The position numbers and the translations under genes are program-made. The notes below the pieces were generated by a model that was given only the letters and a program-made list of their open reading frames with translations, searched no databases and was not told the DNA's origin. This document shows positions 44,872 to 54,497 of a stretch of DNA of 64,000 nucleotides, in pieces. Source of the DNA: Spirochaetales bacterium (lineage in GTDB: Bacteria > Spirochaetota > Spirochaetia > JABEVK01). Within the stretch, counting starts at the first letter, position 1; each line of letters opens with the position of its first letter. Location of the stretch: assembly GCA_947478845.1 (NCBI GenBank), contig CANJXC010000002.1, forward strand, positions 248,001 through 312,000, read 5' to 3'.

Positions 44872-45321
44872 TCACCTCACAAGGGGGGGAGTCAGGGGGA
44901 CAAGTTGCGACAGATAGCTCTGCCAGGCCTCTAGCGTGAGGGGCGGGGAACGGTCTTCAAAGTCTGGTTCTATCCATTCCTCAATTTCAGGGACAAAGGG
45001 AAGGGGACCCGCCACATGGGTCTGCAGCTCCACCCCGCCGAGCCTCCCGGCCGCGGTCCATTCGAAACGAAAATGGTCGTTACCCTGCACACCGGAAAAG
45101 TCGAGCATCAACAGGTCGGTCGTGGGTTCATCGTCCTCGAGCCCGGAAAAGTCCAGGTAATAGAGGCCCCGTTGGGGGTCCCATTCGGCAAAGCAGACCA
45201 ACGAGCTCTCAAGCGACTTATAGAGCTGGGAGTACGAAATGCGCGTGGTGCACTTCCAAATTCCTTCCTTTTTTTGAAAGGTATCGAGCACCACGGCCAA
45301 AGTTTTTGCCGCGAGGGTCAT
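44872..45321 (-). CDS. Protein of unknown function
   Basis: 149 residues, acidic at the C-terminus, no signal peptide and no helix. Sequence such as RISYSQLYKSLESSLVCFAEW and LYYLDFSGLEDDEP suggests an alpha/beta fold of regulatory or binding type, but no family is recognised. It is the first gene of a two-gene unit with a small membrane protein. The ATG follows TACGCT by six bases, so a leaderless transcript is expected. Confidence 0.65.
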   Translation of the reverse strand: MTLAAKTLAVVLDTFQKKEGIWKCTTRISYSQLYKSLESSLVCFAEWDPQRGLYYLDFSGLEDDEPTTDLLMLDFSGVQGNDHFRFEWTAAGRLGGVELQTHVAGPLPFVPEIEEWIEPDFEDRSPPLTLEAWQSYLSQLVPLTPPLVR

Positions 45322-45433: not shown

Positions 45434-45754
45434 ATGTTGGACTTCGTTCGCAGGCTCTTGCTGGTTTCTTACACGGCTTTGATGTTGGCGGGATGCTCGT
45501 TGCCCCAAGCTCCGGCCCCCACTTTGAGCTATCAGGCCAACGGCGGCAACGGGTTGGTGTCAAAACCCCGAGCCTTCCCTGGCCGCGTAGCCTTTGTGGC
45601 CTCCACAGTTACCTTGGTGCGCGAGGGTTATCAGTTTGCCGGCTGGAACACCAGCCCCGTTGCAACCGGCCCCGACCTCGTCGGTGAGGTTTTCCTCGCC
45701 GGTGATACCGTGCTGTACGCCCGCTGGGTAGCCGATGACAGGGTTTCGCCCTAA
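45434..45754 (+). CDS. Small lipoprotein with one InlB/Flg_new-type repeat
   Basis: 106 residues from the ATG at 45434; a GTG six bases upstream is less likely. Signal peptide with lipobox LAGC (Cys about residue 21). The mature part is one Listeria-Bacteroides (InlB B-type) repeat: LSYQANGGNG, YQFAGWNTSPVATGPD and LYARW mark its beta strands. It is a free-standing single module, the smallest member of the array. Confidence 0.8.
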   Translation: MLDFVRRLLLVSYTALMLAGCSLPQAPAPTLSYQANGGNGLVSKPRAFPGRVAFVASTVTLVREGYQFAGWNTSPVATGPDLVGEVFLAGDTVLYARWVADDRVSP

Positions 45755-45806: not shown

Positions 45807-46559
45807 ATGAACCGGTTCAATCCGATGCTGGTTGCGGCCCTGCTGTTTGGGACCCTAACGTTCTCTTCCTGTGTGCTTCCTTTGGGGGCGCCCGCGGGGG
45901 GCCTTTCTGTACACGTAAACTTCCCACGCCAACTTTCTGCTGCTTCCGGGTTTACTCTTGCCGATTTGGCCTTTTGGGAAGTCGTGGGCAGTGGCCCGGC
46001 TGGAGCCGTGCTTCAGGCGGATTACACCAAAACCACCACTCAGGCCGACGTGACGGGGTTGGTGCCCGGTGAATGGGCCATCACTGTCAACGCAATGGAT
46101 GCTACGCGTGAGCGTATTTTGACCGGTTCCACCGTGGTCACTCTTGTGGCGGGCCAGCCCAACGTGGTCGACATTGCCCTGAAAAACGCGAATAGCGTTG
46201 TGGTGACCGTGAACTTCGCTGACCCCCAGCAACCGGTTTTGGCAATCAACCGCACCACCAACAACGTCAGCGTGAACTCAGAGAGTAACCTGGTGGTATT
46301 TGATTCCTCCAGTGCCTCATTGTTAAGCCTTAAAGTGACCACCGAGTTCGACAGCTATGCGTGGTACCTCAATAACGTGGAAACTCCGGTTTGTTCTGTG
46401 GCAGAGTGCGTGCTCTCCGGCCCGGGCCAAGTAGAACTGCCCGCTGGCACCTCGACTTTTCTGCTGGTGGTTGGGAAGGGTGGCCAGTATTACTCCCAGC
46501 AGTTCTGGGTGACAGATGTGTATGTTGTTCCCACGGAGACTCTGGGGATAAAGGGATGA
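45807..46559 (+). CDS. Lipoprotein, array member A
   Basis: 250 residues from the ATG at 45807. Lipobox FSSC, Cys at about residue 22. The mature protein has an N-terminal part (GLSVHVNFPRQL..., TGLVPGEWAITVNAMD) related in pattern to the other members, and the C-terminal ~100 residues end with FDSYAWYLNNVETPVCS, LVVGKGGQYYSQQFWVTDVY. That C-terminal module recurs in members B and C. It has no InlB-type repeat. TATACT at 45783-45788 gives a 12-nt leader. Its stop overlaps the next ATG. Confidence 0.82.
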   Translation: MNRFNPMLVAALLFGTLTFSSCVLPLGAPAGGLSVHVNFPRQLSAASGFTLADLAFWEVVGSGPAGAVLQADYTKTTTQADVTGLVPGEWAITVNAMDATRERILTGSTVVTLVAGQPNVVDIALKNANSVVVTVNFADPQQPVLAINRTTNNVSVNSESNLVVFDSSSASLLSLKVTTEFDSYAWYLNNVETPVCSVAECVLSGPGQVELPAGTSTFLLVVGKGGQYYSQQFWVTDVYVVPTETLGIKG

Positions 46560-48085
46560 AGAAGTTTGTTCTTCTGGCCTTTGGCGCCATGCTGGTCTTT
46601 AGTTCGTGCACTTCGCCTACCAATCCACCATCGGAATCAACGCTCGTCCTTCATGTTACGGGCTCGGCTCGCACGATTACAGCTAAACTTCCCGCGGTCG
46701 ACCACTACTCGGCCATGCTGACTTCTGAAGCAGGAGCGGTGATCGAAGTAAAGGCCTTGAGCCAAGAGACCCCGATTGCTTTGACAAAAGGAACTTGGTC
46801 GGTGCTCATCCGGGCTTTCGATCAGGCGGGCGAGCAAATTGGGGAGGGGTTGTCTAAGGCTACCATCGTTGCCGGCCTGAACACCCTCGTGGTGGCGGTC
46901 AGCCCGCTGCGTCGCGTCACTGGCAGTTTCGATATCGTTGTCATGTTTTCCGAGGCGGCGACAGGGCTCGACTTTCTGTTGACGCCATGGCCCAACGCGA
47001 CACCGGGTACGCTTCCCTCCAACGCGATCACCCTGTCTTTGCCGCCAGTTAGCGAGGCAGTTGCTTTGGTTGCTGATACCGGCCTGTTAAAAAGTGGATC
47101 CTACACATTCGACCTCACCACGAAAAAAGCAGAGTTCAAAGGTACGCTCACTAGCGGCGATTACTTGATAATGATGTACCCGACCAGCGAGTCCGGAAGC
47201 CGGCTTGCAACCTACGGCGAGATACTCAAGATTTACGATTATGGTGCCGCAGCACAAACCTTGAACCGCCCGAGCTTCTTTGTGAACTTCGATGCCGGCC
47301 GAGGCACCCTTGCGATGGACCCTCAGCCCATTCCCTTTGGTCTTTCCAGTGCTTTGACCCCTCAAAAGTTCACCCCTCCCCTCGGCGAAGTGTTTGCAGG
47401 TTGGAAAGAAGGCAACGCGACCACCCTGATCTCTGACGAAGCCTCCTACACGATGAAATCTGATCATGACGTTACGCTCACAGCGCAGTGGGTTGTTCCG
47501 GAGTTGCATTTTGAACTTCAGGGTGGAACTTCTTCGATTGCAAACCTGCCAATACCCGTCGGCACAATCCGAACTTTGCCCGATCCGGGCAATGCGCCAC
47601 CCACACCCTTCACACTCTTTAAAGAGTGGAACACCCTGCCAGATGGTAGCGGCACCTCCTACCTTAATCCCACAGGTTTGTCCTATGCGATGTTTTACGA
47701 CGCTCCTCCTGTGTTGACGCTGTACGCGCAATGGATCTACCGACATCAGGCGGTCTTTAGCGTTAGTTTCGCATTGCCCAACCATCCTGTACTTTCGGCA
47801 GGCAATCTTTCAGACCCAAGCGCTGCTTTGTTGACCGACAACGTGGTGAAGTTTAGTTCCCGAGGAGAGTCTGCGGTCGTCTTGCAGCTTTCACAAGGCT
47901 TTGACAGTTATGACTGGTACATCGACGGCATCAGGAACTCCTCGCTCTGGGGGAGTAGCAGGTGTGTTTTGGCGGGGAATGGAAAATTAATTCTGAGTGC
48001 ACTGAGGTCCACCTTCCTGGTCATCGTGAGCAAGAGCGGCGAGTATTACTCTAAAGAGTTCTGGGTAATGGACGTGGACAAATGA
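46556..48085 (+). CDS. Lipoprotein, array member B, with two InlB-type repeats
   Basis: 509 residues from an ATG that overlaps the stop of member A (ATGA) behind AAAGGG. Lipobox FSSC. Domains: a conserved N-terminal region (about 25-235) with LVLHVTGSARTI, VDHYSAMLTS, ALTKGTWSVLIRAFD and GSFDIVVMFSEAATGLDFLL; repeat 1 (about 238-320) inside a near-identical DNA segment; repeat 2 ending LTLYAQW; then the C-terminal module (FDSYDWYIDG... YYSKEFWVMDV). A surface or periplasmic role is inferred; no enzyme motif is seen. Confidence 0.85.
   Translation: MKKFVLLAFGAMLVFSSCTSPTNPPSESTLVLHVTGSARTITAKLPAVDHYSAMLTSEAGAVIEVKALSQETPIALTKGTWSVLIRAFDQAGEQIGEGLSKATIVAGLNTLVVAVSPLRRVTGSFDIVVMFSEAATGLDFLLTPWPNATPGTLPSNAITLSLPPVSEAVALVADTGLLKSGSYTFDLTTKKAEFKGTLTSGDYLIMMYPTSESGSRLATYGEILKIYDYGAAAQTLNRPSFFVNFDAGRGTLAMDPQPIPFGLSSALTPQKFTPPLGEVFAGWKEGNATTLISDEASYTMKSDHDVTLTAQWVVPELHFELQGGTSSIANLPIPVGTIRTLPDPGNAPPTPFTLFKEWNTLPDGSGTSYLNPTGLSYAMFYDAPPVLTLYAQWIYRHQAVFSVSFALPNHPVLSAGNLSDPSAALLTDNVVKFSSRGESAVVLQLSQGFDSYDWYIDGIRNSSLWGSSRCVLAGNGKLILSALRSTFLVIVSKSGEYYSKEFWVMDVDK
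47268..47499 (+). repeat. 232-bp near-identical repeat, copy 1 (in member B)
   Basis: Identical to 48802-49033 except A/T at 47357 and 47482 (partner positions 48891 and 49016), with no gap. It encodes one complete InlB-type module. Just outside it the two genes diverge strongly. The first difference changes Thr to Ser; the second is silent. Confidence 0.97.
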
Positions 48086-48092
48086 GGCGCAA

Positions 48093-49379
48093 ATGACAAA
48101 ACTTGTGGCCCTAGAAATTGGAGTACTTCTGTTGCTCACGTCGTGTACCGGAATCATAAGCACCTTAAATGAAACAACCCTCTTGGTGCATGTGAAACAA
48201 TCGGCACGCACAATAGAGGCAACGCTCGGTGCTGTAACACATTATGAAGCGAAATTGACGCCTGATCCTGGTCCTGACCGGGGTGATATCGAGGTATCAA
48301 ACCTGAACCAGGAGGATCCGATCGTTCTGGCAACTGGTTGGTGGACCGTTCTGGTATCGGCCTTTGATGGGAATGGTCATAAAATTGGTGAAGGCTGGGG
48401 GCGAATCGAGGTTAAGGCCGGCACCAACAGCGTCTCAATTTTGACCGGTCCGCTGAAAAGATCGACCGGCAGCTTTGATGTGGTAATAGAATATGCCGAA
48501 GTAGCCACTGGGCTCGAGTTCATCTTGTCCCCGTGGCCCGATCAGTCTGAAAACTTCCAAACGACAGCTCTTCAGTTGATTCCAACCACCGAACTATTAC
48601 CACTGACCGTTGACCAGAGTTTCCTGACAGATGCTACATACAAACTTGATCTGAATAACCATCGGGCCGAGTTCAAAGGAACTTTGAAAAGTGGAGACTA
48701 CATGCTGTTGGCCTTCCCAACGACCAGTTCGGGCCGGAAGGGAACCTACGGCGAGATTCTCAGAATTTACGACTTCGGCGCAGCTGAATCGACCTTGTCC
48801 AGCCCGAGCTTCTTTGTGAACTTCGATGCCGGCCGAGGCACCCTTGCGATGGACCCTCAGCCCATTCCCTTTGGTCTTTCCAGTGCTTTGTCCCCTCAAA
48901 AGTTCACCCCTCCCCTCGGCGAAGTGTTTGCAGGTTGGAAAGAAGGCAACGCGACCACCCTGATCTCTGACGAAGCCTCCTACACGATGAAATCTGATCA
49001 TGACGTTACGCTCACTGCGCAGTGGGTTGTTCCACAGTTGACCTTTACTTGGAGTTTTGCCCTGCCCGACGACCCCGAGCTTTTAGTTTCTACAGGGTCT
49101 GGAAACTCAAGCTCAACTGATCTCGTTGTGTTCAACTCGAAAGAGGGCACCCTGGTGATTTTGACGGCGAGCAGTAACTTTGGCGTAGGTACCAGCTATG
49201 CGTGGTACGCCAATGGCGACTGGAAAAACCCAGTCTCTTTGAGCAAGGATTGTATTCTGGTCGGCTCCAAACCAGACGTAACCCTCGACGCCGGAACCTC
49301 GAGATTTTTGGTGGTCGTGAAAAGCCCTGATGGCCGGTATTACTCCAAAGAGTTCTGGGTTAAGGATCTTGGGAAATGA
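48093..49379 (+). CDS. Lipoprotein, array member C, with one InlB-type repeat
   Basis: 428 residues, seven bases after member B. Lipobox LTSC, Cys near residue 18. Same layout as B but shorter: N-terminal family region (LLVHVKQSARTIEATL, VTHYEAKLTP, LATGWWTVLVSAFDGNG, GSFDVVIEYAEVATGLEFIL), one InlB-type repeat lying within the near-identical segment, then the C-terminal module ending YYSKEFWVKDLGK. Diverges clearly from B in the N-terminal region while sharing the same repeat DNA. Confidence 0.85.
   Translation: MTKLVALEIGVLLLLTSCTGIISTLNETTLLVHVKQSARTIEATLGAVTHYEAKLTPDPGPDRGDIEVSNLNQEDPIVLATGWWTVLVSAFDGNGHKIGEGWGRIEVKAGTNSVSILTGPLKRSTGSFDVVIEYAEVATGLEFILSPWPDQSENFQTTALQLIPTTELLPLTVDQSFLTDATYKLDLNNHRAEFKGTLKSGDYMLLAFPTTSSGRKGTYGEILRIYDFGAAESTLSSPSFFVNFDAGRGTLAMDPQPIPFGLSSALSPQKFTPPLGEVFAGWKEGNATTLISDEASYTMKSDHDVTLTAQWVVPQLTFTWSFALPDDPELLVSTGSGNSSSTDLVVFNSKEGTLVILTASSNFGVGTSYAWYANGDWKNPVSLSKDCILVGSKPDVTLDAGTSRFLVVVKSPDGRYYSKEFWVKDLGK
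48802..49033 (+). repeat. 232-bp near-identical repeat, copy 2 (in member C)
   Basis: Direct-orientation copy of 47268-47499 with two substitutions and a constant offset of 1534 bp. Recombination between the copies would remove or duplicate one gene's length and fuse B to C in frame. Confidence 0.97.
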
Positions 49380-49386
49380 CGCTGCT

Positions 49387-51429
49387 ATGAGAAAGCTCAT
49401 TGCGCTGGCGCTCGGTTCACTCCTTTTCCTCACCTCGTGTGCTCAAGTTATCAACTCTGTGTTTGATGCGACTTTAGCAATTCACGTGACGAGTTTTGCG
49501 CGCACCCTAGAGGCAACACAGACCGAAGCTCTGGCGACAGTTGATCATTATTCAGCGACCTTGACCTCGACTTCCGGTGGTGGAGTAGTCCAGATTGACG
49601 ACCTCAATCAAGCTAAAACGATAGCATTGACCACAGGTCCGTGGAGTGTCGTGGTTAAGGCCTACGCACGGCCAGGGAATGCCGACAGTGACCAGATTGG
49701 TGAGGGAAGGCCTGAAAACGACCCCATCACTGTGGTTTCCCGTGAAAATAGCATCAATGTTAAGCTTGGCCCGGTAAGAAAGGGATACGGGAGCTTCGAC
49801 CTCACGGTTGACTACTCGGAAGAGGCCACAGGAGTCGATTTTTCACTGATGCCGTGGCCCAACACAGATGAGAGTGCGGTTTTTGGTGTCGTGACGGCGA
49901 CGACTACGAGTGCGGGCACGATTCCTCCAAAGACTGGCTTCCTGCAAAATGCGAGTTATACCCTCAACCTGCGAGATACCCTCGCCGAGTTCAAAGGGAC
50001 TCTTAGGAGTGGGGATTACCTAGTGCAGATCACCACCCATACTTCCTCTACTTCCTCAGGTAACTCGACCACCTACAGTGAGATTTTGAGGGTCTACGAT
50101 AATATTCCCGTCAAACGGACTCTGACCCATCCCAGCCATAATGTTAAGTTCAACCCTGGTCTGGGTACGGGAACAGTTGTGACCCAGCCCATACCGTTTG
50201 GCATGTCGAGTGCACTGGTGAGTTTTGGTACCCTGGGGTTTGGTGCTCCCAACGCCTCCGGAAAAGTATTTGACGGGTGGAAACAAAGCACCTCAATCAC
50301 TTTAATTGCTGACGAGGCATCTTATTTTATGCAGTCTACTGAGGATGTGACTTTGACAGCTCAGTGGCGAGATCCTGTGGTGATTCTTTACAACTATGAC
50401 GGAACCCTTGAACTTGCTCGTCCGGTGGTTACCAATCGCATAACTGCGGCTCTCACCAATAGCGGAGGTTCGCCGCCTTCTAGCTCGATGGTCTTTGACG
50501 GTTGGTACCTCGGGGTTAGCGGTGCCGGTGTACGCTACGGCACGGGTAGCACCTACACGATTCCGATGACCGTGACGAGCGATGTAAAGCTGTATGCGAA
50601 CTGGTTAGCCTTGGTAACTCTGCACTTTGACGGAAATGGCGCAAATGGTGGTTCGATGACAGATCGCCTATTGACACCGGGGCAAACGATTACTTTGGCC
50701 TCGAATGGGTTTACAAACTCAACGGCGAGCATATTTGGAGGCTGGACTATCATCAAGGGCGGTACGGTGGCCTACGCAAATGGCGCCTCGTTTACCATCG
50801 GTAATTCAGCAGTTACCTTGTACGCAAAGTGGTCCTCAGTTCCGGTGTATGCTTTGAACGTCAGTTCGTCAAACACCACTTACGGTACCGTGAGTGTGCA
50901 GGAAGGGGCTGGGCCATTCACCGCAGGAACCTTGATACACCTAACCGCCACCCCACTTGCCAATTATGCCTTTGTTAATTGGGAGGGAGATATCAGTGGA
51001 GTTGCAGGAGCTCGAAGTGCTGTAACGACCCTCACTATGCCTTCGGAGGCCGTGACTATCACAGCTAACTTTAGCGTTCCTTCCACTGGCGCTCTTTCCT
51101 CCACTGACCGGAGGTCTTACGGACGTGGGGCCAACTTCTACGCAGATATCTATTCATTTACAATTTCTACAGCCCAAACAGTGACGATCTCGATGGTCGC
51201 TCCGGGGAAAGATAGCTTTTTGTACCTTTACAAGAACTCGTGGCAAGGTGGTGATTTCATCGCACTGAACGATGACTCAGGTGGTACCTTGGACTCGATG
51301 ATAGGCCCAATCTCGCTAGCGCCCGGCACTTACTTTGTGGACGCAACATCCTATGGACAACTTGCTACTTTCAGTTACACATTGACTGCGAGCTCGACCT
51401 CTGGAGCAATTGCGTTGACTCAGTACTAA
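49387..51429 (+). CDS. Large lipoprotein, array member D, with repeats and a PPC domain
   Basis: 680 residues from the ATG at 49387, seven bases after member C. Lipobox LTSC. Same N-terminal family region as B and C (LAIHVTSFARTLEATQ, VDHYSATLTS, LTTGPWSVVVKAYARPG, GSFDLTVDYSEEATGVDFSL). Then three InlB-type repeats ending LTAQW, LYANW and LYAKW, and a divergent InlB repeat (IHLTATPLANYAFVNWEGD). It ends with a C-terminal PPC-type domain (FYADIYSFTISTAQTVTISM, FLYLYKNSW, APGTYFVDATSY). The C-terminal module of A-C is absent, replaced by PPC. Confidence 0.85.
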   Translation: MRKLIALALGSLLFLTSCAQVINSVFDATLAIHVTSFARTLEATQTEALATVDHYSATLTSTSGGGVVQIDDLNQAKTIALTTGPWSVVVKAYARPGNADSDQIGEGRPENDPITVVSRENSINVKLGPVRKGYGSFDLTVDYSEEATGVDFSLMPWPNTDESAVFGVVTATTTSAGTIPPKTGFLQNASYTLNLRDTLAEFKGTLRSGDYLVQITTHTSSTSSGNSTTYSEILRVYDNIPVKRTLTHPSHNVKFNPGLGTGTVVTQPIPFGMSSALVSFGTLGFGAPNASGKVFDGWKQSTSITLIADEASYFMQSTEDVTLTAQWRDPVVILYNYDGTLELARPVVTNRITAALTNSGGSPPSSSMVFDGWYLGVSGAGVRYGTGSTYTIPMTVTSDVKLYANWLALVTLHFDGNGANGGSMTDRLLTPGQTITLASNGFTNSTASIFGGWTIIKGGTVAYANGASFTIGNSAVTLYAKWSSVPVYALNVSSSNTTYGTVSVQEGAGPFTAGTLIHLTATPLANYAFVNWEGDISGVAGARSAVTTLTMPSEAVTITANFSVPSTGALSSTDRRSYGRGANFYADIYSFTISTAQTVTISMVAPGKDSFLYLYKNSWQGGDFIALNDDSGGTLDSMIGPISLAPGTYFVDATSYGQLATFSYTLTASSTSGAIALTQY

Positions 51430-51638: not shown

Positions 51639-52640
51639 ATGCCCAGAGCCCCCCTTGACCCCCTGAGCCCCCAGAATTACCCTAAAAAGATGAGGATCAA
51701 GGGGTATTCTGATTTGTTCATCCGTTGGCTTTTTGGGGCCGAGGAGAACAACGAGTATTTGCTATCGTTTCTCAATGCCCTGCAGGAGTACGAGGGGCAA
51801 ACGCCCTTGAGGTCGGTGCTGGTGCGTAACCCGTTTTTGTTGCAGCGTGCCTACGACGACAAGCTGGCGGTGCTCGATGTTTTGGCCGAAGCGGAGGATG
51901 GGTTGCAGTTCAACGTCGAGGTGCAGGCCAGCAACCATGCCGGCTTTGAGGAACGCACCCTGTACTATTGGGCACGGGTGTATTCGGGGCAGATTGATTC
52001 GAGCGACAAGTACACCAAGCTCAACCCGGTGGTGGGAGTCAACATTGTCAATTTTGTGCTATTTCCCGGCATTTCGCGACCTGTGAACACCTTTCACCTC
52101 ACGCACGACCAGAACCCAGAGCTGCGTTTGACAGAGCACCTGACGGTGCATTACTTGGAATTGCCTAAACTGCGCGCCGAAGCCGTGCCCGAGCGCAAAC
52201 TAGAACGATGGATGGCCTTCTTGAAACACGAAGGCGAGGAGGGTTTTGATATGAAAGTTTTGTTGCATCAAGACAACGACCTGCAGAAGGCGCACGACCG
52301 CTACCACTACTTTGCCTCCGACGCGGATGCCAAGGCCCGCTGGGAGTCGCACTGGAAGTGGCAAATTGACCAAAACCAGGCGCGCTACGACGCACAGCAG
52401 GCCGGTTTGGCAGAAGGCCGCGCCGAGGGCCTAGAGGAAGGCCGCGCCGAAGGTAAAGCCGAAGGTAAAGCCGAAGGTAAAGCTGAAGGTAAAGCTGAAG
52501 GTAAAGCTGAAGGTAAGGCTGAAGGTAAAGCTGAAGGCCGGCTCGAACTTGCACAGGAATTGGTCGCCAAGGGTCTCGCGCCCGAACAGGTGTCGCAGCT
52601 GACGGGCATTCCTGTGGCCAGGTTAACGCAGCAAAGCTGA
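51639..52640 (+). CDS. Rpn-family PD-(D/E)XK nuclease/putative transposase
   Basis: 333 residues. N-terminal start KMRIKGYSDLFIRWLFG and the catalytic region KLAVLDVLAEAEDGLQFNVEVQ follow the PD-(D/E)XK transposase family (PF12784 type), with Asp at the LDV and Glu-x-Gln of NVEVQ. FEERTLYYWARVYSGQI is also typical. After residue 245 a low-complexity helix rich in Glu, Gly and Ala begins, including seven near-perfect AEGK units. The last 35 residues (LAQELVAKGLAPEQVSQLTGI) resemble the HTH-like tail of many Rpn proteins. Some family members promote recombination; transposition is unproven. Confidence 0.88.
   Translation: MPRAPLDPLSPQNYPKKMRIKGYSDLFIRWLFGAEENNEYLLSFLNALQEYEGQTPLRSVLVRNPFLLQRAYDDKLAVLDVLAEAEDGLQFNVEVQASNHAGFEERTLYYWARVYSGQIDSSDKYTKLNPVVGVNIVNFVLFPGISRPVNTFHLTHDQNPELRLTEHLTVHYLELPKLRAEAVPERKLERWMAFLKHEGEEGFDMKVLLHQDNDLQKAHDRYHYFASDADAKARWESHWKWQIDQNQARYDAQQAGLAEGRAEGLEEGRAEGKAEGKAEGKAEGKAEGKAEGKAEGKAEGRLELAQELVAKGLAPEQVSQLTGIPVARLTQQS
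52446..52529 (+). repeat. Seven tandem 12-bp units in the Rpn-family gene
   Basis: Consensus GCYGAAGGTAAA, seven copies, with one A-to-G variant; the next unit is partial. Each unit adds AEGK, so changes in copy number stay in frame and lengthen the helix. Slippage would vary length without killing the gene. Confidence 0.95.
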
Positions 52641-52678
52641 CTCACCTCGAAAGGCTTCCCAGCGCGCCGTTTTTTGGG

Positions 52679-52684
52679 TATCCT
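52679..52684 (+). promoter_or_regulatory. -10 hexamer for the putative glycoside hydrolase gene
   Basis: TATCCT, seven bases, GTG at 52692. It supports the GTG start over the upstream TTG and predicts a leader of about one base. Confidence 0.38.
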
Positions 52685-52691
52685 CGGCGTC

Positions 52692-54497
52692 GTGAAACCT
52701 TTCTTACTTCTGCTGCTCACCTTCGCTCTCTTTCCGGCCTTGCAGGCCCTTCCCGCGCGCGTAATCGACACGCAAGCCCACCTTGACCGCAATGACTTCC
52801 TGATAATTCCGGGCTTTGACGCTCTTCAGGGGGCGGGGTTTCCCAGCCGCGTTCTAGGAAGCAATCCCACCGTGGTTCAGCGGCCGCTCACGAGTTTTGC
52901 CTCGCCTAGCGATGCAATATGGACCATCACGACCCCCTACGAGGGCTTCACGAGCACCGACAAGGGCCGCAGCTGGACCAAGGTGCTCGACCGCGAGGCC
53001 TTTCGGCCGGGGGCCAATTTGTCGGCGTTGGCTGCCAACCCCGGTTTGCCCGGTTCGCTGGCCGCTGGTACCACCTTTCATGGCCTTTATCTGACCACGG
53101 ATAACGGAAAGTCGTGGAAGAATCCGGAAGATTTCGAGACGGCTTACGGCTACAACGACGGCGCCCGTGAGCCCATCAATGCGCTGGCTTGGTCGGCCAA
53201 AACGCCTGCTAACCTGTGGGCCTTCGCGGGCAAAGAAGGTAGCCACCTGTGGCAACTCGACACCACCACTGGCAAGCGCACGATGTGGGCTTTTCCCGGG
53301 GGCTCTTACCTCGAGCTCCCCGAGGCTTTGGCCAGTCACCTCGAAGGAACCACCGAGATCCTCGAGGTGCGCACCCGCACCGCCTGGTGGCGAGGGGAAG
53401 CGGGCACCGACAAATGGACCAAGCTCGAAGACCGCACCGACGTGCCCGAATGGGATGCCGCCAAGCGCTCCCGCATGGAAAAATCAAAAGACAAACTGGC
53501 CTTTTATGTGAGCGCCTATCAGGCGGCCCGGCCTGAGCTGCTCGGGGGCCACCTCGACTTTATGGCCAAAACCGGTCTCAACGCCGTGGTGATCGATTTC
53601 AAAAACGACTTTGGCGAAATTAACTACGACAGCAAGGTAGCCTTCGCGGTGAAAGCCAAACTGGCCAAGCCAGTTTTTGATGCCGTTGCCCTGATCAAAA
53701 AAGTCCACGACCGAGGGTTTTACCTCATTGCCCGCGTGGTGGTGTTTAAAGACAACCGCCTGTACAAGTACAACGACTTCCAGTACGCCCTGTACGACAG
53801 CGCCACCAAGAAACCTTGGGGCAACCTCGTGGATGGGGTGCAGAAGGAGTTTTGGGTCGACACCTACAACCAAGACGTGTGGGCCTACAACATCGCTTTG
53901 GTGCGCGAACTGCAAGACCTAGGTGTGGACGAGATTCAGTTTGACTACATCCGTTTTCCTTCGGATGGTCCGGTGAACCGCATCGTCAACCGCGCCAAGG
54001 TGGAGGGCATGAGCCGCATGGACGCGCTGGAAGGCTTTTTGAAAGGCGCCCGCGCGGCTCTCAGTATTCCTTTGTCAGTGGATATTTACGGCTACAACGG
54101 ATACTTCATTACCGACCACCTGGGGCAAAACCTCACCATGATCAGCAAGTACGTCGACGCCATTAGCCCGATGTTTTACCCCTCGCACTTTTACCGCTCG
54201 TTTTTGCCCAAATACAGCTACCTCGACCGAGCGCAAATTATTTACCAGGACGGTAGCGACCGCACCTGGATGAGCACCGGGAGGCGCGTGCACGTGCGTC
54301 CGTGGGTGCAAACCTTCCTGCTCGGCGGTGAGCTCAAGTTCGACGACAACACCATCAGAGCCTACGTCGACCGCCAGTTGATCGGCGTGCAAAAGAGCAA
54401 GGCCAGCGGGTTCCTGTTATGGAACTCCTCCAACCGCTACTACATGGTGACCAAACCCGTTACGCCGTTTGCCACCCTCACCACGTTGCCTTACTGA
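52692..54497 (+). CDS. Secreted putative glycoside hydrolase (DUF4015) with Asp-box domain
   Basis: 601 residues from GTG 52692. Signal peptide of about 20 residues (LLLLLTFALFPALQAL). The N-terminal ~200 residues have two Asp boxes, STDKGRSW and TTDNGKSW, as in BNR/sialidase or Ycf48-type beta-propellers. Residues about 265-590 match DUF4015: LGGHLDFMAKTGLNAVVIDF, NDFGEINYDSKVAF, LIARVVVFKDNRLYKY, the ELQDLGVDEIQFDYIRFPSD segment, and SPMFYPSHF. That family has a TIM-barrel GH fold (PF13200). A substrate cannot be named. The azlC start overlaps its stop. Confidence 0.85.
   Translation: MKPFLLLLLTFALFPALQALPARVIDTQAHLDRNDFLIIPGFDALQGAGFPSRVLGSNPTVVQRPLTSFASPSDAIWTITTPYEGFTSTDKGRSWTKVLDREAFRPGANLSALAANPGLPGSLAAGTTFHGLYLTTDNGKSWKNPEDFETAYGYNDGAREPINALAWSAKTPANLWAFAGKEGSHLWQLDTTTGKRTMWAFPGGSYLELPEALASHLEGTTEILEVRTRTAWWRGEAGTDKWTKLEDRTDVPEWDAAKRSRMEKSKDKLAFYVSAYQAARPELLGGHLDFMAKTGLNAVVIDFKNDFGEINYDSKVAFAVKAKLAKPVFDAVALIKKVHDRGFYLIARVVVFKDNRLYKYNDFQYALYDSATKKPWGNLVDGVQKEFWVDTYNQDVWAYNIALVRELQDLGVDEIQFDYIRFPSDGPVNRIVNRAKVEGMSRMDALEGFLKGARAALSIPLSVDIYGYNGYFITDHLGQNLTMISKYVDAISPMFYPSHFYRSFLPKYSYLDRAQIIYQDGSDRTWMSTGRRVHVRPWVQTFLLGGELKFDDNTIRAYVDRQLIGVQKSKASGFLLWNSSNRYYMVTKPVTPFATLTTLPY

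Follow-up and report, generated by a model that had tools for sequence, protein, structure and literature searches.

Near-identical InlB-type modules in two old tandem lipoprotein genes of a Spirochaetales bacterium point to a recent gene conversion

How two neighbouring lipoprotein genes that are otherwise strongly diverged come to carry the same stretch of coding DNA is the question raised by this locus, which lies in a window of 64,000 nucleotides (the whole stretch of DNA that was analysed) from a Spirochaetales bacterium. The two genes, here called A and B, contain copies of a 232-nt tract that are in register at an offset of 1534 and differ by two mismatches and no gaps. One of the mismatches (position 47357, A/T) turns ACC (Thr) in gene A into TCC (Ser) in gene B, while the other (47482, A/T) is silent. 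An earlier reading made from the letters of the window alone (the sequence-only reading) had described two gapless copies with one Thr/Ser and one silent difference, which was right to the base. The first mismatches beyond the edges of the tract are found at 47267 on the left and 47500 on the right. A repeat search of the entire 64-kb window returned no direct repeat of at least 60 bp besides the A/B pair, and matches to the tract in the 2.99-Mb genome were confined to these two places. The background repeat rate was taken from 352 kb of a single contig, the one that carries the array, which had no other repeat of at least 100 bp above 90% identity. The features of the locus are listed in Table 1.

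Table 1. Positions of the array genes, the shared tract and the adjoining nuclease-family gene in the window.
Feature	Coordinates	Strand	Description
Gene E	45434..45754	+	106-aa lipoprotein-like ORF; one Flg_new (InlB-type) repeat, PF09479 30.2 bits
Gene D	45807..46559	+	Lipoprotein; N-domain weakly related; C-terminal domain as in A and B; without module
Gene A	46556..48085	+	Lipoprotein; N-domain, then the tract as module 1, then a second module-like stretch before the C-terminal domain
Left flank in A	47199..47267	+	69 nt, about 71% nt identical to B; weak sign of a possible older exchange
Shared tract, copy in gene A	47268..47499	+	A codons 239-314 plus edges; 99.1% identical to 48802-49033
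Gene B	48093..49379	+	Lipoprotein; the tract (module 1) lies between N-domain and C-terminal domain
Shared tract, copy in gene B	48802..49033	+	Same 232 nt, read in the same phase as the A copy
Gene C	49387..51429	+	Lipoprotein; N-domain, diverged module 1, more InlB-type modules, weak PPC-like C-terminus
PD-(D/E)XK (Rpn/PDDEXK_2) nuclease-family gene	51639..52640	+	Adjoins array

Both copies are part of an array of five head-to-tail ORFs on one strand in the order E-D-A-B-C, in which A, B and C are intact tandem ORFs. Co-transcription is likely, given a 4-nt overlap of D with A and gaps of 7 nt at both A-B and B-C. A scan for promoters and terminators returned sites no more numerous than in shuffled sequence. 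All five genes start with what reads as a lipoprotein-type signal and cysteine, with lipobox ends, read by eye, of ...VFSSC (A), ...LLTSC (B), ...FLTSC (C), ...TFSSC (D) and ...LAGC (E). The N-terminal domain and the InlB-type module are common to A, B and C, while the C-terminal domain is common to A, B and D. The nuclease-family gene next to the array has a long EGKAEGKAEG repeat run close to its C-terminus, and genes of the Rpn family occur in four places in the genome. The genome also contains three matches to the FlaA family (PF04620), for which none was found in 14 control genomes; given what is known of this family, this suggests a spirochaete.

The tract had been equated with exactly one InlB-type module, and the profile matches make this reasonable. 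TIGR02543 (curated cut-off 20.95 bits) matched residues 279-312 of A with 21.8 bits, above the cut-off, and residues 278-311 of B with 20.4 bits, slightly below it, both within the tract, while the match in C reached 43.6 bits and was also above the cut-off. Pfam models matched the module weakly. A search of the tract against Rfam matched no family, and the PDB sequence search returned chance antibody matches only. Structure prediction for residues 1-322 of B gave a mean pLDDT of 45, with the module at about 25-35, values too low for the model to be used.

Synonymous divergence inside and outside the tract, a comparison that had been proposed as a check, separates the two regions clearly. Between A and B the N-domain has 48% amino acid identity, a nucleotide identity of 0.538 and a pS of 0.78 (synonymous sites saturated), in line with the strong divergence of the flanking coding sequence that had been claimed, and the 60 codons adjacent to the tract have a pS of 0.75. 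In contrast, the tract itself has a nucleotide identity of 0.991, with one replacement and one synonymous difference in 54.3 sites (dS 0.019). A and B use the same codon for 70 of 71 conserved residues in the tract, compared to 31 of 94 upstream. None of 20,000 codon-column permutations reached a 232-nt run with two mismatches, the maximum being 59 nt. Judged by these comparisons, chance or ordinary shared descent can be excluded as the cause of the identity. The alignments demonstrate that A and B are otherwise old paralogs, anciently diverged on the N-terminal side, and that recent common descent is confined to the tract, with the C-terminal side being non-collinear and diverged.

The reading that we regard as highly probable is that a single recent non-reciprocal gene conversion replaced the resident homologous module 1 between the old tandem paralogs A and B. 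The recent gene conversion that had been claimed is thus well supported, with a tract dS close to zero against saturation outside, sharp edges, and gene C excluding conservation as discussed below. The starting point would be two old tandem paralogs in which an InlB-type module follows the N-terminal domain. RecA-type homologous recombination would have copied module 1 of one gene, about 232 nt, over the homologous resident module of the other, either by gene conversion or by two exchanges of equal outcome between sister chromosomes. The copied stretch would have been bounded by the loss of A/B collinearity on the right and by the module start on the left. The likely net result would be the domain homogenisation of two co-oriented, probably co-transcribed lipoproteins with their frames intact. 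We infer this recombination route, as well as replacement instead of insertion. To the right of the tract comes the second module-like stretch in A but the C-terminal domain in B, and the right edge falls where it does because collinear homology between A and B ends there. The left edge is located at the module start within continuing homology. In the 69-nt left flank 10 of 15 codons of conserved residues are identical. This is a higher share than the 31 of 94 found farther upstream (post hoc Fisher test, p=0.02) and perhaps reflects a faint older exchange. With a GC3 of 0.605, the tract falls between the upstream values of A (0.63) and B (0.53), which does not clearly favour either direction of copying. 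Some points count against conversion. The tract corresponds to a domain, which is not required of a random conversion tract, and only its right edge is accounted for. Furthermore, paralogs with about 60% nucleotide identity offer RecA little uninterrupted identity, and the event may therefore have required an earlier unseen exchange or a route independent of RecA. According to the coordinates, a crossover between the direct repeats in A and B would remove 1534 bp and fuse the two genes in frame, with a predicted hybrid product of about 429 aa.

Alternatives to this reading concern the assembly, selection and the origin of the module. It is very hard to credit that one gene's module was misbuilt from reads of the other, even though the assembly is a draft of 22 contigs, since there are two differences between the copies, exact identity extends over 124 nt at most, the flanking sequence is unique on either side and a contig of about 353 kb passes through the array. 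The least plausible of the explanations weighed here is strong purifying selection on the module protein or its DNA (e.g. a hidden RNA or an antisense gene) that keeps old copies alike. The tract copies do overlap with antisense ORFs (232 and 134 aa), which is mechanically expected in GC-rich coding DNA, but there is no Rfam family match to constrain the DNA, and silent sites of the module that hardly vary between A and B are saturated between either of them and C. The module of C has a pS of 0.80 against A and 0.82 against B at 57% amino acid identity (A-C nucleotide identity about 60%), and selection on the module therefore cannot explain the identity of the A and B copies. More weight, although still little, can be given to a domain duplication in which A or B lacked the module and received a copy by non-homologous or microhomology-mediated insertion. 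The edges of the tract coincide with those of the module, and D, with N- and C-terminal domains but no module, provides a module-free form in the array. However, C, whose distance to A and to B is about the same, carries a homologous module and linker residues at the same junction ('TLxxPS' before the module, 'QPIPFGxSSAL' and 'DVTLTAQW' within it). The ancestor of A, B and C therefore most likely had the module, which is the more parsimonious assumption, and the event was most likely a replacement. Of the wording 'gene conversion or module duplication' in the sequence-only reading, the conversion is well supported, while duplication in the sense of an insertion is the less likely part.

Orthologs of A, B and C were found neither in the two same-genus genomes (G001 and G002) nor in four other same-family genomes, where the matches were distant relatives of the N-domain or of InlB-type modules. 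Among 395 same-class genomes there was no close relative of A, B or C, the best match outside their own genome reaching 28% identity across a part of the protein, and a contig scan beyond this genome returned distant InlB-type repeats in other phyla only. The genes that flank the array, 44872-45321 on the left and a DUF4015 gene (52674-54497) on the right, stand directly next to each other, in divergent orientation, in two sister-genus genomes (G003, L046; G005, L045). Because these genes are adjacent there, the segment 45434-52640 (array and Rpn gene) is either a lineage-specific addition or was lost elsewhere. In G001 the left gene follows a hydroxymethyltransferase gene, as it does here, but is then followed by unrelated genes, and the DUF4015 gene is flanked by different genes in both G001 and G002. 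In another same-family genome (G006), an ORF of 1327 aa contains an exchange-like patch between two InlB-type repeats (L042, 3954-4144 and +675). The patch spans 191 nt with 21 mismatches between more divergent flanks (0 of 5,000 shuffles) and is weaker than the A/B case; given this patch, exchange may recur in such InlB-type modules.

Several other repeats and gene pairs were observed. G002 contains two adjacent lipoprotein-like ORFs (L040, 3312-4409 and 4462-6471), the second of which distantly matches the N-domain of A to C; read by eye, both have this domain, followed in the second by NHL-like repeats. A 1013-aa lipoprotein-like ORF (G000:C2:62835-65873) has repeats of about 144 bp with roughly 80% identity in its 3' part, and a tandem pair of paralogous membrane-protein genes (G000:C2:348386-350143) is about 80% identical at the DNA level. 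About eleven tandem repeats of 234 bp with ~88% identity are present on a Flavobacteriaceae MAG contig (L011, 381-2945).

Two further readings would make the tract one outcome of a dedicated or mobile system. That the array belongs to a programmed system of antigenic or phase variation, continually shuffling modules among surface lipoproteins, appears highly improbable. Tandem surface-type lipoproteins with a mosaic domain order and one recent exchange, an adjoining Rpn-family nuclease gene, and the occurrence of antigenic variation in spirochaetes, as in TprK (PMC10063172), speak for it. Against it, the genome holds two copies of the tract, a single event is seen, and all genes of the array are intact. 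No silent partial donor copies and no cassette archive were found, all protein matches within this genome falling in the array. The array is also free of G-quadruplex motifs; a G-quadruplex-like run is present only downstream on the minus strand at the start of the Rpn gene (about 51642-51682). The likeness to antigenic variation or adhesin diversification drawn by the sequence-only reading is not borne out by two tract copies in intact same-strand ORFs. It is very unlikely, if marginally less so, that the lineage-specific array and the Rpn-family gene form a mobile island whose nuclease drives RecA-independent module exchange, with A/B hybrids being appreciably frequent. The Rpn family has been a subject of work on RecA-independent transfer in E. 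coli (PMC5350276) and on phage defence (PMC10327210). Given the four genomic places of such genes, the position of one beside the array is suggestive at most.

We return to gene conversion between duplicated genes, a known and ordinary process of which the tract would be a new example, and current understanding is unchanged by it. The locus offers a clean natural case of exchange at the scale of one domain between lipoprotein genes in tandem, from a lineage that has been little studied and is probably spirochaetal, with gene C as an internal control that excludes selection, and indicates that such exchange happens without a cassette archive. It also advises caution, as lipoprotein genes of the array are risky as single-locus markers. 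Compared to the Listeria-Bacteroides or InlB B-repeats (TIGR02543, PF09479 and PF18998), the copied unit scores as a member of the family, weakly in A and B and better in C and E, but A and B have one module in common while the remaining parts of the proteins differ. Segmental gene conversion in TprK draws on 53 silent donor cassettes (PMC10063172), and conversion among tpr genes (TprK, PMC10063172; tprC/tprD, PMC6197692) is likewise a non-reciprocal segmental copying between paralogous surface-protein genes. Whereas TprK has its cassette archive, none was found for A and B, and both partners are complete genes. The closest precedent is provided by the modular genes TP0856/TP0858 and TP0136 of Treponema pallidum subspecies (PMC6197692), in which neighbouring paralogs have identical same-frame stretches inside diverged sequence; the short identical in-frame modules of TP0856/TP0858 were ascribed by the authors to intra-strain recombination. 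Those modules measure about 35-42 nt, belong to a FadL-like beta-barrel family and are variable among sequenced strains (PMC6197692), whereas the exchange between A and B covers 232 nt and one InlB-type module, affects lipoproteins and is known from one genome. By analogy, the A/B case would work like TP0856/TP0858, without the archive that defines TprK.
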